Below are positions 300 to 42,356 of a DNA stretch of 42,595 nucleotides, piece by piece (position 1 is the first letter of the stretch; each line of letters begins with the position of its first letter). The position numbers were made by a program, and so were the translations under genes. The notes below the pieces were generated by a model. It saw nothing but the letters and a program-made list of their open reading frames with translations. It searched no databases and had not been told where the DNA came from. The stretch is from a virus, in IMG/VR virus record IMGVR_UViG_3300013233_000087, positions 1-42,595 of that record; one strand, given 5' to 3'.

Positions 300-709
300 C
301 AATAATAAGAAGTTTAACACCAGAGAATCAGAAGGTGTGGTTAGAAAAGAAGGTTGAAGGTGAAGGTTGTAAACTGGCAAAGACACTAGGTGGAATTGCT
401 TACAAGTTCACATCACCACAACGCAGAGCGGTACCTGACAGACTCGTGCTGCTACCTTTCCGAGCAGGGTTCTTCATTGAGTACAAACGGTGGGGCAAGA
501 AGCCTACACCGGCTCAGCTAAGAGAGGGTCATAAGCTGATTAGGATGGGCCAGTACGTGTACTACGTTGATAATGTTAATGACGCTGAGTACATTATCCG
601 TCGATGGGCAATCTGCGATCGACCCGACATGATTGAGTACTCACTTCCCGACTCAAAGATTAAGGCGATGGTGACATCAGCACTACAAGGCGAAGAATGC
701 GATGCTTAA
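296..709 (+). CDS. VRR-NUC domain endonuclease
   Basis: 137 aa. It is recognisable as a stand-alone VRR-NUC (PD-(D/E)XK superfamily) nuclease: residues 47-70 contain PDRLVLLP, a hydrophobic strand, FIEYKRWGKKPTPAQ, in which D, E and K form the expected metal-binding/catalytic set, followed by the usual helix with REGHKLIRMGQYVYYVD. Such proteins are nearly always next to an SNF2-type helicase in phages, as here, and probably act in recombination or in resolving branched replication DNA. The start is GTG at 296 in this copy; in the right-end copy the same gene begins with ATG at 42356. The end overlaps the helicase start by eight bases. Confidence 0.88.
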   Translation: MTIIRSLTPENQKVWLEKKVEGEGCKLAKTLGGIAYKFTSPQRRAVPDRLVLLPFRAGFFIEYKRWGKKPTPAQLREGHKLIRMGQYVYYVDNVNDAEYIIRRWAICDRPDMIEYSLPDSKIKAMVTSALQGEECDA

Positions 710-3700
710 CCCTGAACAACTCCACGGATACCAGAAGACAGCTATCGAGCTGCAGTGCAGTTCACCCTCATCAATGATGTGGCTGGATGTCGGGCTTGGT
801 AAACTGCAACCTAACAGCGAACCTGTTCTCACACCTAATGGGTGGGTCAACATGGGCGACATCAAAGTAGGTATGTACGTTGTCGGCTCAGATGGTCAGC
901 CCACAGAAGTGCTCGGCGTATTCCCTCAAGGTGAACAATCTGTTGTCAGAGTCACATTGTCTGACGGCTCATGGTGTCGAGTGGGCTGGGATCACCTGTG
1001 GTATGTACAGACACGAAACCAACGCACTCGCGATCAAGTGGGCCATGTGATGACTACTCGACAGATAGTGGACAAAGGTATCTGTAGACAGTTCGGTAAG
1101 CGAGAGCTTTATGACTTCTGTATTCCAATGGTGGAGCCTGTTAATTATCAATCATCACCAGTGCAACTCGACCCTTATATATTGGGTGTGATTCTGGGTG
1201 ACGGGACAACAAGTCCGTCAGGTGATGTGACAGTATGCACAGACAGAGACATTATTAATAGCAGCGACATGCTCAGGTATCTGAGAGACCATAAGACCTG
1301 TGACTATGTGGGCTATGGATCATTACCGGGAAAACAATCAATCATCAAGAGTCTGGGTCTCAACGGTAAGCGTAGTTGGGAAAAGTTTATCCCAAGTAAT
1401 TACATGACAGCGCAGATTAATGATCGCTTAGCAATGGTGCAAGGGTTGATGGATAGTGACGGCAGCCCTATTGATAAAGGAGGTGCTGAATTCTCATCAA
1501 CATCAGAACAACTGACTGACGGACTTGTTGAATTGGTTGAGTCGTTGGGCGGTAATGCCAGGAAGAAAGGACCACGCATAACCCGTTATCAAAACGGTGA
1601 AGGTCGTCCATCTTGGCGCGTTAATGTGAAACTCCCATCATCGATGGAACCGTTCAGACTGCAGCGCAAATTAGACAAGTGGGTTCGCCCAACCAAGTAT
1701 CAACCTATGCGGTACATTGTCGATGCTGTTGACGAAGGGGTTGAGGAATCCACCTGTATCAAGGTGGCTGCGAAGGACTCACTCTATGTGACTCGACACC
1801 ATGTTGTCACACACAATACTTCAGTGGCCCTCACAAGCATCGCACACCTCATTGACACAGGATGGCTTGACGCAGTGTTCGTTGTCGCTCCCATCCGTGT
1901 ATGCAGGCTCGTGTGGGCTAAGGAAGCATCTAAGTGGAGTCACACCAACCATCTCAAGTTCTCAATGGTGATGGGCACCAAAGATCAGAGACTCAGAGCA
2001 CTTCACCAGAAGGCAGATGTATATCTCATCAACTATGAAAATCTCAGATGGTTAATGAAAACCCTTAAGCAGTATTATGTAGATAAGGGAAAACCCTTAC
2101 CTGCTAACGGGATTGTTTGGGATGAGATTTCCAAGATGAAGAATAGCAGCACTCAACGTGTCAAAGCTGTGCGTCACATGCTCAAACATTTCAAATGGTT
2201 CACAGGATTGACAGCAACCCCTGCCAGTAACGGATACAAAGACCTGCATGGTCAGTTCTTGGTGGTGGATCAGGGTCAGCGATTAGGTACAGCAAAGAGT
2301 CAATTTGAAGGCGCATACTTTAAGAAGGTGGGCTATAAGTTGGTGCCTCATGAGGATGCCAAGGAAGCCATCCACGCCAAGATCAGTGACATCACGCTTG
2401 AGATGAGTGCTGCCGATTACAATCCTTTACCTGACATGATTGTGAATGATATTGAAGTGGAGCTACCACCGAGTACCAGGCTCCAATACGATCAACTGGA
2501 AAAGGACTACTTCACAAAGCTGGACACGGGCGAAGGCGTTGAGGTGTTCAATGCTGCGTCACTCACCAACAAGCTGCTGCAGATGAGTAATGGTTGTGTG
2601 TATCCGATACCCGGCGCACCTATGTACCAACCTGTGCATGACGCAAAATTAGACGCATTAGAAGACCTGGTTGAAGAACTGTCAGGTCAGCAACTCTTGT
2701 TGTCGTACGCTTACCGAAGCGATGCTGATCGAATAATGAGATTGTTTAATAAGGTGTTGAAGGATTCCCCTCCCATCAACTTAACAGAGTGCAAGACTGA
2801 GAGGTCACTGAAGCAGGCGATGTTAAGGTGGGACACTGGTGATTGCCCGTTGATGATCGGCCATCCTGCATGCCTACACCCAATGACTCAAGTGTTGACT
2901 GAATTGTATGGGTGGATTAGTCTGATCGACGTGAGCACCAGTGACAAAGTGTTCGATGGTGTCGAGTTTGTGTCACATGACGGATGCTCTTATTCGGGCT
3001 ATAAAGATGTGATCGATGTGTTCGGCATCACAATGACGCAGAACCACAAACTTTTAATAAACAATAATTGGGTGGAGGCTCACAATGTTGGAGATAGTGA
3101 AGCAGTTAGACGAGAAGCATTATACGAATACAAAGGCTATGACGATGGTGTTGGTGAAATGTTTGAGATGCGGGACGACATCGAAAATTATCAAACAGAA
3201 CTTCACCAAGCACAACCTGACCAAGAGAGAATATTGTCAGCACTGTGTTCAGGACAGATACCACAATACGACTGGGACTCGTATTTGGAGAATCTGGCAA
3301 GGGATGACAGCAGACGAGGCGATGAAAGACGCGACGGACTCACCTTACGGAAAAGGGAAGCGAGCAACACAAAAACGCATGTCTACGATCTCGTAAACTG
3401 TGGGCCACGTAACAGGTTCATCATCCGAAACGGTGATGGTGAGGCTTTCATCTCACATAATTCAATGGGACACGGAATAGACGGGTTACAAGATGCAGGG
3501 CATAATCTATGCTGGTTTGGTATGAATTGGAGTTTGGATTTCTACGAACAGTTCAATGGTAGGCTCCGTCGTCAAGGCCAAGGCGCGCCCGTTAAGTGTC
3601 ATCGAATCATTGCGCCTGACACTATGGACATGGCGCAGATAGAAGCGTTAAACATTAAGTCGTCCGACCAAGCATCACTGAGGAAAGCTGTAGCAACATA

Positions 3701-3719
3701 CCGTAACAGTCGTCGCTAG
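702..3719 (+). CDS. SNF2-type DEAD/DEAH-like helicase interrupted by two inteins
   Basis: 1005 aa precursor; removal of the two inteins (804-1817 and 2871-3461) leaves 470 aa, the usual size of phage SNF2-type helicases. Extein motifs: Q/I region HGYQKTAIEL, Walker A GLGK|TS (split by intein 1 between K and T), DE-containing motif II in WDEISKMKN near residue 473, motif III TGLTATP near 507, motif V HPA|SMGHGIDGLQ (split by intein 2 after Ala) and motif VI QFNGRLRRQGQ near 950. The protein should be an ATP-driven DNA translocase or branch-remodelling helicase acting with the VRR nuclease encoded just upstream. Both inteins sit in conserved ATPase motifs, so the unspliced protein should be inactive. 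The stop overlaps the convergent endolysin stop in CTAG. Confidence 0.93.
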   Translation: MLNPEQLHGYQKTAIELQCSSPSSMMWLDVGLGKLQPNSEPVLTPNGWVNMGDIKVGMYVVGSDGQPTEVLGVFPQGEQSVVRVTLSDGSWCRVGWDHLWYVQTRNQRTRDQVGHVMTTRQIVDKGICRQFGKRELYDFCIPMVEPVNYQSSPVQLDPYILGVILGDGTTSPSGDVTVCTDRDIINSSDMLRYLRDHKTCDYVGYGSLPGKQSIIKSLGLNGKRSWEKFIPSNYMTAQINDRLAMVQGLMDSDGSPIDKGGAEFSSTSEQLTDGLVELVESLGGNARKKGPRITRYQNGEGRPSWRVNVKLPSSMEPFRLQRKLDKWVRPTKYQPMRYIVDAVDEGVEESTCIKVAAKDSLYVTRHHVVTHNTSVALTSIAHLIDTGWLDAVFVVAPIRVCRLVWAKEASKWSHTNHLKFSMVMGTKDQRLRALHQKADVYLINYENLRWLMKTLKQYYVDKGKPLPANGIVWDEISKMKNSSTQRVKAVRHMLKHFKWFTGLTATPASNGYKDLHGQFLVVDQGQRLGTAKSQFEGAYFKKVGYKLVPHEDAKEAIHAKISDITLEMSAADYNPLPDMIVNDIEVELPPSTRLQYDQLEKDYFTKLDTGEGVEVFNAASLTNKLLQMSNGCVYPIPGAPMYQPVHDAKLDALEDLVEELSGQQLLLSYAYRSDADRIMRLFNKVLKDSPPINLTECKTERSLKQAMLRWDTGDCPLMIGHPACLHPMTQVLTELYGWISLIDVSTSDKVFDGVEFVSHDGCSYSGYKDVIDVFGITMTQNHKLLINNNWVEAHNVGDSEAVRREALYEYKGYDDGVGEMFEMRDDIENYQTELHQAQPDQERILSALCSGQIPQYDWDSYLENLARDDSRRGDERRDGLTLRKREASNTKTHVYDLVNCGPRNRFIIRNGDGEAFISHNSMGHGIDGLQDAGHNLCWFGMNWSLDFYEQFNGRLRRQGQGAPVKCHRIIAPDTMDMAQIEALNIKSSDQASLRKAVATYRNSRR
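804..1817 (+). mobile_element. Intein 1: class 3-type intein with LAGLIDADG endonuclease, in Walker A
   Basis: 338 aa inserted between Lys34 and Thr of the helicase GKT motif. The N-terminal residue is Leu, not Cys/Ser. The features fit a class 3 intein with the WCT set: block B has H-L-W (WDHLWYV), block F has the Cys of STCIKV, and block G ends VVTHN with Thr before His; the +1 extein residue is Thr. Two dodecapeptide-like motifs, YILGVILGDG and MVQGLMDSDG, show a LAGLIDADG homing endonuclease domain, so the element may be mobile. Boundaries are set by restoring GLGK-TSVAL and by the terminal HN. Confidence 0.9.
2871..3461 (+). mobile_element. Intein 2: class 1-type intein in helicase motif V, hosting a nested ORF
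   Basis: 197 aa inserted after Ala of HPA-SMGHGI. It begins with Cys (CLHPMTQVLTE), has block B TQNH (ITMTQNHKLL), a WVEAHNVGD element typical of the Hint fold, block F VYDLVNCGPRNRF and ends SHN before Ser+1, the classical class 1 layout. No LAGLIDADG motif is seen in this frame. Between the NVGD element and block F the intein frame has an odd, charged, low-quality composition, while the +1 frame there reads as a convincing zinc-finger protein (3085-3396). Splicing should restore motif V of the helicase. Confidence 0.9.
3085..3396 (+). CDS. Nested zinc-finger ORF in alternative frame inside intein 2 (candidate homing endonuclease or remnant)
   Basis: 103 aa in the +1 frame relative to the helicase/intein. 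ATG at 3085 is preceded by GGAGG (3074-3078) at six bases, an ideal Shine-Dalgarno arrangement lying inside the intein codons for WVEAH. The protein has a CxxC...CxxC zinc-ribbon-like module (KCLRCGTTSK then REYCQHC, about residues 26-55) and a C-terminal segment RIWQGMTADEAMKDA...YGKGKRATQKR that resembles DNA-binding tails of phage HNH-type endonucleases. No complete catalytic motif is evident. It starts at the last conserved element before the endonuclease insertion point and stops just before block F. It could be a free-standing gene, the product of a frameshift, or the remnant of an in-frame domain. Confidence 0.62.
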   Translation: MLEIVKQLDEKHYTNTKAMTMVLVKCLRCGTTSKIIKQNFTKHNLTKREYCQHCVQDRYHNTTGTRIWRIWQGMTADEAMKDATDSPYGKGKRATQKRMSTIS

Positions 3720-40288: not shown

Positions 40289-40402
40289 ATGATAGGCAAC
40301 TTTTTATTTGCAAAGAAATTCCACATAGTAGACCTGTGTGCAGTCAGTTTAATTACTCACTACTTCTTGTCTCCAATGGTGATGCGACTTATTGAGGATT
40401 GA
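40289..40402 (+). CDS. Small hydrophobic protein (37 aa)
   Basis: ATG 40289 to TGA 40400-40402, with GGGAGGG eight bases upstream, a strong Shine-Dalgarno. MIGNFLFAKKFHIVDLCAVS then LITHYFLSPMVMRLIED. A hydrophobic central helix suggests membrane association. It directly precedes the polymerase start with one base between stop and ATG, and its last codons contain the polymerase's GAGGA. Confidence 0.6.
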   Translation: MIGNFLFAKKFHIVDLCAVSLITHYFLSPMVMRLIED

Positions 40403-40403
40403 T

Positions 40404-42356
40404 ATGGCACAAGTGTACGATTTAGAAACATACCCGAACTTCTTCCTCGCGTGTATTGAGGCAGATGACACAGGTCAGAGATGGGAATTTGTGTGTGATG
40501 ACACGCGCAATGATTGGCCTGAATTCTTAAGTTGGTTAACCTTGTGGGGGAGCACTCGCGCGGTGATGACAGGGTTTAATAGTGTAGGGTTCGACTATCC
40601 TGTGCTGCACCATCTACTCAAGCTGGACACATCGGAAGCCACAGGTGTTCAGATAGCCAATGCTGCGTATGCGAAAGCAATGCAGATAATCCAAACACCA
40701 TGGGATCAACGCTTCAGTAACCGCATCTGGGACACTGACTGTATGGTGAAACAGCGCGATCTATTCATCATCAATCACTTCGACAACCCTGCTAAGTCAA
40801 CATCGCTGAAGCAGATTGAGTTCAACATGCGAATGATGAACGTGCAAGAGTTACCGATCCCTGTCGGTACAGAGAACCTGACACCACAGGATAAGCAGAT
40901 CATCATTGATTACTGTTGGAATGATATGGAAGCAACAATGGCGTTTAACAACTCGTGTCGTGATGATGTTGAGTTCCGAGAACACTTACGACTTGAGTAT
41001 GGTAGCGACTTCACCAACATGAACGATGCTAAAGTGGGTGGTCAGATAATGATCAACCGACTCAAAGATGCGGGGGTTGAGTGTTATGAGTACATCAATA
41101 AAAAGAAGACAGTCAGACAAACTAAGCGTGGTCGCATCAACTTAGGTGATGTCATCTTCCCTTACATCCAGTTCAGATCACCAGAGTTCAATGCGCTGCT
41201 CGACAAGTTCAGGAGCATTACCATTAAGGATACTCGCAAGGCCCCTGAGGTGGATGGCATGCACGTCATCTATAAAGGGTTCAAGTACGACTACGGTCTT
41301 GGTGGGATACATGGATCAGTGGAGTCACAGATCATCAGAGCCACCAACACTCGTATGATACTCGACATCGATGTCACAGGCTTTTATCCGTCATTAGGTA
41401 TCGCTAACAGCCTGTATCCTGAGCACCTTGGTATCGAGTTCTGTGATATATCGAACGATGTTAAGACTGAGCGAGCACAGTATTCAAAAGGAACATCACA
41501 GAACTTAGCAATGAAGATGGCAGGCAATGCCACCTACGGTAACTCGAACAACCAGTACAGCCCGTTCTTTGACTCGAAGTACACCATGTCGATCACCATC
41601 AATGGTCAACTACTGCTCACCATGCTTGCTGAGTGGTTAGGTGACGTTCATTCGCTGAGAACCATACAAGCGAACACCGATGGTCTGACCATTGAGGTTG
41701 ATCGCGATCAATACGACGCAGTGATGGAGCGATGCGATGCTTGGTGTGACTACACTAAGTTAGAACTTGAATACGCTGAATACGACATCATGCCGATACG
41801 CGATGTTAATAATTACATGGCCCGCACAGTCGATGGGAAGATCAAACGTAAAGGAGCATATGAATGGAATAAGCTGCATCATCAGGATCAATCATTCCTA
41901 GTGGTCGCTAAGATCACTGAGAAGGTGCTGCTCGATGACGCCCCCATCACTGACACACTCAAATCATGGCCCGATGTGTTCGATTTCATGGGCCGCACTA
42001 AGGTTCCTAAGAGTGGACGGTTGATGATTGATGACGGTCACGACAGAACACAAGTGCAGAACTTGAGTCGCTATCTGGTGACTGAAGAGGGTGGTAAAAT
42101 GATTAAGATACTACCACCACTGTGCGCTAACCGTGAAGAAGCTGAGCTACGGATTAAGAAGTTGAAGAACCAGCCGAAGGATGCGCAGGCTTATGAGGAT
42201 CGAGTGATGACCCTGCTGTCTGAGCGCGAGACTGTAATGGCGTCGGGAAACAACGTAACCATTTGCAACAACATGAGCGAGATTGCTTGGATGACACCAA
42301 TCAACTTCGCATTCTACGAGAATAAAATTCAAAAATTAGTTATGGGATTGGAGTAA
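40404..42356 (+). CDS. Family B DNA polymerase with 3'-5' exonuclease
   Basis: 650 aa from ATG 40404, with GAGG six bases upstream. Exonuclease: Exo I VYDLETYP (Asp6, Glu8), Exo II TGFNSVGFDYPVL near 60, Exo III DYCWNDMEAT near 170. Polymerase: motif A DIDVTGFYPSL near 320, motif B NLAMKMAGNATYGN near 370 and motif C ANTDGLTIEV near 423, where the usual DTD is NTD. This is a short family B enzyme rather than the T7-type family A polymerase, although the virion is T7-like. Its terminal TAA shares one base with the next ATG (TAATG) at the right end, whereas at the left end the DUF3310 gene intervenes. Confidence 0.9.
   Translation: MAQVYDLETYPNFFLACIEADDTGQRWEFVCDDTRNDWPEFLSWLTLWGSTRAVMTGFNSVGFDYPVLHHLLKLDTSEATGVQIANAAYAKAMQIIQTPWDQRFSNRIWDTDCMVKQRDLFIINHFDNPAKSTSLKQIEFNMRMMNVQELPIPVGTENLTPQDKQIIIDYCWNDMEATMAFNNSCRDDVEFREHLRLEYGSDFTNMNDAKVGGQIMINRLKDAGVECYEYINKKKTVRQTKRGRINLGDVIFPYIQFRSPEFNALLDKFRSITIKDTRKAPEVDGMHVIYKGFKYDYGLGGIHGSVESQIIRATNTRMILDIDVTGFYPSLGIANSLYPEHLGIEFCDISNDVKTERAQYSKGTSQNLAMKMAGNATYGNSNNQYSPFFDSKYTMSITINGQLLLTMLAEWLGDVHSLRTIQANTDGLTIEVDRDQYDAVMERCDAWCDYTKLELEYAEYDIMPIRDVNNYMARTVDGKIKRKGAYEWNKLHHQDQSFLVVAKITEKVLLDDAPITDTLKSWPDVFDFMGRTKVPKSGRLMIDDGHDRTQVQNLSRYLVTEEGGKMIKILPPLCANREEAELRIKKLKNQPKDAQAYEDRVMTLLSERETVMASGNNVTICNNMSEIAWMTPINFAFYENKIQKLVMGLE

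Follow-up and report, generated by a model that had tools for sequence, protein, structure and literature searches.

Near the start of a viral contig (IMG/VR record IMGVR_UViG_3300013233_000087), a gene for a phage helicase seems to be interrupted by two inteins of different types. What kinds of inteins are these, did they arrive separately, and how does each of them spread? We considered these questions for the window, by which we mean the whole stretch of DNA that was analyzed (42,595 nucleotides), and for related genes from other phages. Our best explanation, to which we give a probability of about 0.88, is that the second intein (intein 2) is a class 1-type intein with a homing endonuclease gene lying out of frame over it, that this gene has suffered a deletion in the window, and that the first intein (intein 1) is independent.

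Two inteins interrupt a phage helicase

The precursor gene and its two insertions are:

702 to 3719, + strand: open reading frame (ORF) for a SNF2-type phage helicase precursor, 1005 amino acids (Pfam SNF2-rel_dom, 1.5e-11; PHROG 62, DNA helicase, 1.8e-106)
804 to 1817, + strand: intein 1, 338 amino acids, inserted at GLGK/T in Walker A, class 3 WCT layout (the site is empty in L001 and L006)
2871 to 3461, + strand: intein 2, 197 amino acids, inserted at GHPA/S in helicase motif V, class 1 layout (the site is empty in L001 and L006)

The helicase ORF is unbroken across both inteins, both in the window and in the intact relatives described below. The initial annotation had placed two inteins of different sequence class within the ATPase motifs of this gene, starting at 804 and ending at 3461. 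Both inteins are present, the two endpoints are exact, and one intein does lie in Walker A and the other in motif V; the difference in class is upheld by invariant splicing residues. The intein-free helicases of L001 (a viral contig) and L006 (phage DSL-LC05), which are 65% identical to the exteins from the window, have uninterrupted GLGK-T and GHPA-S at the two sites. Because these homologs read straight through both sites, they support both intein junctions.

The initial annotation also proposed that the two inteins arrived independently, and their distribution agrees. Intein 2 is found alone in L004 and other relatives, a Walker A intein is found alone in the related helicase of Salmonella phage Ent1, both inteins are found in L037 (a viral contig with a related helicase), and neither is found in L001 or L006. 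At L037:1296-4718, the Walker A intein is of class 3 type (Glu1 and the WCT set), and the motif V intein 2 has an intact endonuclease gene in the +1 frame.

The pairing of class 3 and class 1 inteins in one helicase is already known: in DnaB from Mycobacterium smegmatis, a class 3 intein interrupts the P-loop, and another ATPase motif holds a class 1 intein (PMC6195587). As in the window, the Ser/Thr of the P-loop is the +1 residue of the class 3 intein. However, DnaB is hexameric, while the window encodes a SNF2-type helicase; of the two DnaB inteins (DnaBi1 and DnaBi2), it is the class 1 intein that contains the endonuclease, and the class 3 intein is a mini-intein. Also, no out-of-frame gene is described there (PMC6195587). 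A class 3 intein in a Snf2 protein from Deinococcus is in the literature as well (a reference within PMC7765530).

Directly upstream of the helicase, at 296-709 of the window, is a short endonuclease-like ORF (PHROG 93, 3.5e-23); PHROG 93 is also weakly matched by the N-terminal block of intein 2 (1.4e-5). The phage collection contains no near-identical match to the window's DNA.

Intein 1 has an in-frame LAGLIDADG domain

Class 3 inteins are defined by the WCT set: Trp in block B, Cys at F:4, and Thr at G:5 (PMC5050341). The corresponding features of intein 1 are:

999 to 1001, + strand: Trp of WCT, W66 (block B, H-L-W), invariant in four phage inteins
1176 to 1205, + strand: LAGLIDADG motif 1, YILGVILGDG (from the alignment and a match to PF14528)
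1434 to 1463, + strand: LAGLIDADG motif 2, MVQGLMDSDG (from the alignment)
1755 to 1757, + strand: Cys318 in block F, the expected class 3 nucleophile, invariant in four phage inteins
1809 to 1820, + strand: C-terminus, T336-H337-N338, with Thr+1 (from the four-intein alignment)

The initial annotation had assigned intein 1 to class 3 from its Leu1, the H-L-W of block B, the block F Cys, the Thr that precedes the terminal HN, and Thr+1, and we agree. We aligned intein 1 to the related inteins from L037, L002, and mycobacteriophage Pinkcreek. W66, C318, T336, the His of block B, and the terminal HN are invariant, and there is no nucleophile at position 1, which is Leu in the window and Glu in L037. 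That one of the two inteins has a LAGLIDADG endonuclease was likewise confirmed: it is intein 1, which matches PF14528 with 26.7 bits (the cutoff is 22.5). The LAGLIDADG module is in frame, and its acidic residues D133 and D219 are invariant across the four inteins. By its sequence, then, intein 1 is of class 3 type, is independent of intein 2, and contains a LAGLIDADG domain in the standard in-frame arrangement. Inteins related to it are found in 769 phage records; the matches listed include helicases, terminases, and other proteins.

The helicase intein of Ent1 (L064:576-1619) is at the same Walker A site and begins with Cys, unlike the class 3-type intein in the window, so one Walker A site may be used by inteins of different layout. 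The annotated end of the Ent1 intein takes in the +1 Thr.

Intein 2 is a class 1-type intein in the host frame

The splicing residues of intein 2 are:

2871 to 2873, + strand: Cys1, invariant in 19 relatives
3036 to 3047, + strand: TxxH of block B (TQNH), with T56 and H59 invariant
3456 to 3464, + strand: C-terminal H-N with Ser+1 (from the host-frame alignment)

These residues bear out the class 1 layout that had been proposed for intein 2 from its Cys1, terminal HN, and Ser+1. Block B reads T-Q-N-H and the terminus reads SHN; C1, T56, H59, H196, and N197 are invariant in 19 relatives. The AlphaFold model has pLDDT mostly above 90, except for a disordered middle (residues 103-163). The model has the Hint fold, and when it was compared to solved inteins with Foldseek, the probability was 1.00 and the best E value was 1.4e-3. 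Because Cys1, TxxH, and HN/Ser are invariant and the model matches solved inteins, we consider intein 2 to be a class 1-type intein by layout and predicted fold. Between blocks B and F, the host-frame linker is predicted to be disordered and is poorly conserved; only part of the stretch that is overlapped by the nested gene (see below) is disordered.

A probable homing endonuclease gene is nested out of frame within intein 2

For the mobility of intein 2, the initial annotation had offered a different module from that of intein 1, or none. A different module is present, as a decayed gene for an HNH-type endonuclease; what was not foreseen is that it sits in another reading frame. The features of the nested gene are:

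3074 to 3078, + strand: GGAGG, a Shine-Dalgarno-like site 6 nucleotides before the nested ATG and within the W-V-E-A codons, conserved in the family
3085 to 3396, + strand: nested ORF in the +1 frame, 103 amino acids, remnant of a gene for an HNH-type homing endonuclease (61-64% identical to the intact L004 gene)
3301 to 3306, + strand: GGGATG, junction of a 318-bp (106-codon) deletion (from the alignment with L036 and L004)

With the nested protein from the window as the query, we found viral contigs L004 and L005, which have the same intein at the same site, with a 222-residue ORF in the +1 frame. A search with the host-frame alignment identified 28 loci. In 16 distinct viral contigs among these, the motif V intein contains a full-length nested ORF of about 205-219 residues; it is always in the +1 frame, and both frames are open.

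Relative to L036 and L004, the copy in the window has lost 106 codons (318 bp) from between a pair of GGGATG repeats, and both frames stay open across the deletion. The nested ORF retains an N-terminal zinc-finger-like region and the C-terminal tail. The deleted segment is the nuclease core: it holds 13 of the 14 residues that are invariant in the endonuclease alignment, leaving only H67. Since the core is gone, the copy of intein 2 in the window should not be able to home by its own enzyme and is probably immobile, and the remaining mini-intein should still be able to splice. The loss of the core also explains why a tblastn search with the nested ORF from the window had no match in the phage collection, while the intact copy from L004 matched hundreds of loci. 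In the first 80 codons of the nested ORF, the substitution counts are like those between intact copies. Because this pattern is still visible, the loss was probably recent.

In two other mini versions of intein 2 (L054:3501-3947 and L056:3501-3953), the nested gene is wholly lost. Together with the copy in the window, these form a decay series.

The nested gene has a conserved start

The nested gene begins with ATG (once GTG) at a fixed distance past block B, and its stop codon is at or inside block F. GGAG or GAGG precedes 14 of 17 nested starts, as compared to 5.7% of the remaining ATG triplets in these helicase genes. More specifically, most copies in the helicase family have GGAGG or GAGG 6 nucleotides ahead of the endonuclease's start; L004 has only a weak GAAG at this position. 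Because the Shine-Dalgarno-like site lies in the codons for Trp-Val-Glu-Ala, it is partly forced by the intein. Within these codons, GAG is used rather than GAA in 14 of 16 cases, which is weakly significant (P = 0.03). The simplest reading is that translation of the nested gene begins internally; frameshifting seems less likely.

DNA polymerase inteins have nested genes in two frames

Distant relatives of intein 2 in DNA polymerases have the same kind of nested gene: we found an HNH-type ORF in 18 of the 19 loci that we inspected. The nested gene is in the +1 frame in APSE phages, Caulobacter phages, Shewanella phage SFCi1, and Streptococcus phage Javan113, and it is in the +2 frame in Dhillonvirus, in Jerseyvirus and relatives, and in EBPR siphovirus 2. 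A related polymerase intein is present in over 140 Salmonella phage records.

Among the records that we inspected, the nested gene is annotated separately only as P46 of APSE-1 and gp39 of Sodalis phage SO-1; in the records for Ent1 and SETP3, it is left unannotated. APSE-1 P45/P46 and SO-1 gp38/gp39 have the same architecture as the helicase family, with overlapping ORFs for the host protein and the HNH protein that are annotated as overlapping genes, but the host gene is a DNA polymerase and the GenBank records do not label the insertion as an intein. The pair gp38/gp39 (L017:597-3785) is labeled "type I self-splicing intron," and its sequence is that of an intein with an out-of-frame HNH gene.

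Both reading frames are under selection

In the codons of the exteins, substitutions are most frequent at the third position of the host frame. Within the overlap, they are instead most frequent at host position 1 (for the +1 group) or host position 2 (for the +2 group), which in either case is the third position of the nested codons. Between the window and L004, for example, the substitutions at host positions 1, 2, and 3 number 51, 27, and 24 in the overlap and 171, 130, and 270 in the exteins (P = 1.5e-5). In the polymerase group, the shift between SO-1 and VSe103 has P = 1e-20. These counts compare a small number of related pairs rather than fitting a full overlapping-gene codon model. The peak at nested third positions implies that the nested reading frame is constrained.

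The host frame leaves its mark on the nested genes as well. When we shuffled the synonymous codons of the 16 intact nested genes, the mean number of stop codons expected in the host frame was 4.8-12.1; in the actual genes, none was observed (P ≤ 0.003 for each). The polymerase group likewise avoids host-frame stops. Thus, the choice of nested codons is adapted to avoid closing the host frame.

The nested proteins belong to HNH endonuclease families

All six nested proteins that we tested matched HNH endonuclease families in PHROG, with best E values of 7e-32 to 1e-59. The nested protein from L004 matches PHROG 3377 (4e-43) and PHROG 374 (4e-33); it also matches hundreds of phage loci, many of which are annotated as HNH endonucleases and which include free-standing homologs. 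Other comparisons gave less. A search of Pfam found no HNH match, the PDB sequences yielded only a weak match to I-HmuI (E = 0.11), and Foldseek returned nothing useful for the nested protein. The structural model for the L004 protein has a mean pLDDT of 86.5, and the best alignment of its middle part is to the HNH restriction enzyme PacI (3ldy; Z = 7.0 over 77 residues, 2.4 Å), while most other rows have Z below 4. Because this Z score is middling, the match to PacI supports the fold without proving it. In the nested endonuclease family (L004:2107-2772), the usual first His of HNH is Arg, and there is a conserved E/D-R, which recalls the active sites of PacI-like enzymes. Given the Arg at this position, putative cleavage rests on the family annotation together with the PacI-like match.

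Intein 2 is patchily distributed: a minimum of three changes is needed to explain its presence on the helicase tree, and there are sister helicases with and without it (L040 has it and L006 does not; L051 has it and L001 does not). The tree of the endonucleases has three well-supported groups, which follow the host gene and the frame. A single origin of all of the nested genes is not rejected by the tree (p-AU = 0.255), so despite the differing frames, we do not claim independent origins.

A proposed mechanism and its alternatives

From the sequences, we infer internal initiation, cleavage of empty sites, and homing. In the intact relatives, a ribosome in the host frame would make a helicase-Hint-helicase precursor, from which the Hint domain would splice itself out; in this frame, the stretch between blocks B and F would be disordered filler. 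A second ribosome would enter at the Shine-Dalgarno site in the W-V-E-A codons, begin at the ATG or GTG, and translate the +1 frame into an HNH-type (PacI-like) endonuclease that is a protein of its own, about 205-219 residues long. As suggested by its family, the architecture, and the patchy distribution, this enzyme would cut intein-free alleles, and the element would be copied in. In the window, the deletion between the GGGATG repeats would have left a mini-intein that splices and does not home by its own enzyme.

Could the nested ORF simply be a chance open frame that stays open because the host-frame linker is conserved? Other overlapping ORFs of about 100 amino acids do occur by chance in the window, but the linker is disordered and poorly conserved, nested third positions vary the most, and relatives of the ORF match HNH endonuclease PHROGs down to 1e-59. 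The homology to free-standing phage endonucleases refutes this idea, to which we give almost no credence. We are just as skeptical of the reading suggested by the GenBank record for SO-1 gp38/gp39, in which the insertion would be a group I intron that encodes the HNH gene and the host frame would be open by accident. In Rfam, neither ten relatives (at the gathering score) nor the window (up to E = 1) matched such an intron; no intact copy has a closed host frame, contrary to what shuffling would predict; and Cys1, TxxH, HN, and Ser+1 are invariant in a protein with a predicted Hint fold. Given the blank result from Rfam and the conflict with the Hint domain, we rejected a group I intron for intein 2. 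Programmed ribosomal frameshifting, which would join the two frames and fuse the endonuclease to the N-terminal splicing domain, is improbable. Most copies from the +1 group do have a few open nested-frame codons ahead of the start, but the frame is closed just beyond (by a stop at 3058-3060 in the window), and in most copies the start codon and the Shine-Dalgarno-like site have constant spacing.

Two other alternatives concern function. The 103-amino-acid remnant in the window might still be made and be useful, for instance by binding DNA to cover the insertion site or to regulate the gene. It retains the zinc-finger-like region, an exact GGAGG site, and intact-like substitution counts over its first 80 codons. 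However, a recent deletion would leave the identical pattern, the deleted part had 13 of the 14 invariant endonuclease residues, and L054 and L056 do without the nested gene altogether, so a useful remnant seems unlikely, with perhaps an outside chance of being correct. The initial annotation raised the idea that the pair of inteins could serve as a switch regulating the helicase's activity. There is a precedent in that a DnaB intein from M. smegmatis responds to oxidative stress (PMC6195587), but related phages lack one or both inteins, and such patchy presence fits selfish elements; we think a switch is very unlikely.

Comparison to known mobile elements

In textbook homing inteins such as PI-SceI, the endonuclease is translated as an in-frame fusion with the intein (PMC3943268). 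Intein 2 resembles these inteins in having a Hint splicing domain with the endonuclease between blocks B and F, but in the intein 2 family, the endonuclease is in a shifted frame.

Of the out-of-frame HNH genes that have been described, the closest is the ShiLan domain, a hidden endonuclease in mycobacteriophage methylases (PMC11855218). It too is an HNH gene in another frame of a phage gene, with an open host frame and a patchy, mobile distribution. However, its authors found no intein splicing domain, intron, or ribosome-binding site (PMC11855218). The genes of the intein 2 family lie inside bona fide inteins, and most copies in the helicase family have a Shine-Dalgarno-like site. A ShiLan-type element was ruled out for intein 2, which has a Hint domain and all of the class 1 splicing residues.

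The fractured genes of Dassa et al. 2009 reportedly combine split inteins with a free-standing endonuclease, so that, as in intein 2, the endonuclease is encoded apart from the splicing domain. In those systems the host gene is said to be in two parts, while the host ORF of intein 2 is continuous and overlaps the endonuclease gene. This continuity rules out a fractured gene or split intein for intein 2.

We consider the out-of-frame endonuclease gene of intein 2, which is decayed here and intact in many relatives, to be a new variant of mobile intein. In the literature that we searched, which did not cover several intein papers, we found no true intein described as having its endonuclease out of frame, so priority is uncertain. 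It is fairly likely that these elements are a recurrent and previously undescribed kind of mobile intein, with a separate out-of-frame endonuclease, an internal ribosome-binding site in conserved codons, two frames, at least three well-supported clades, and mostly no annotation.

In such an intein, splicing and mobility are encoded by the same DNA in different frames and are uncoupled. Therefore, the endonuclease could in principle reach a different level than the host protein, and it could decay without breaking splicing; the copy in the window and the two mini-inteins illustrate such decay. An internal Shine-Dalgarno start would be a testable answer to a question that was left open for hidden HNH genes (PMC11855218). 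These inteins also give, in common phages, a clean natural example of genes that overlap while selection acts on both frames, and they indicate that endonucleases nested in inteins are missed by annotation.

Other related loci

In the gene at L055:88-2452, a stop within intein 2 ends the host ORF, which resumes in another frame, while the endonuclease ORF is open; this is a frameshift or a sequencing error. Another gene (L059:3501-4558) encodes an intein-like N-terminal block with an HNH-type ORF of 286 residues in the +2 frame. The window's own DNA polymerase (40392-42356; PHROG 1252, 7e-155) has no long insert, although the polymerases of other phages carry related inteins. In a metagenome-assembled genome from the Alphaproteobacteria, a scan of the one genome found a single polymerase intein with no obvious nested gene. 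Finally, downstream of the polymerase gene of APSE-1 (L016:3221-3425), the C4 antisense RNA, its targets, and an isrK-like RNA are found at Rfam gathering scores.
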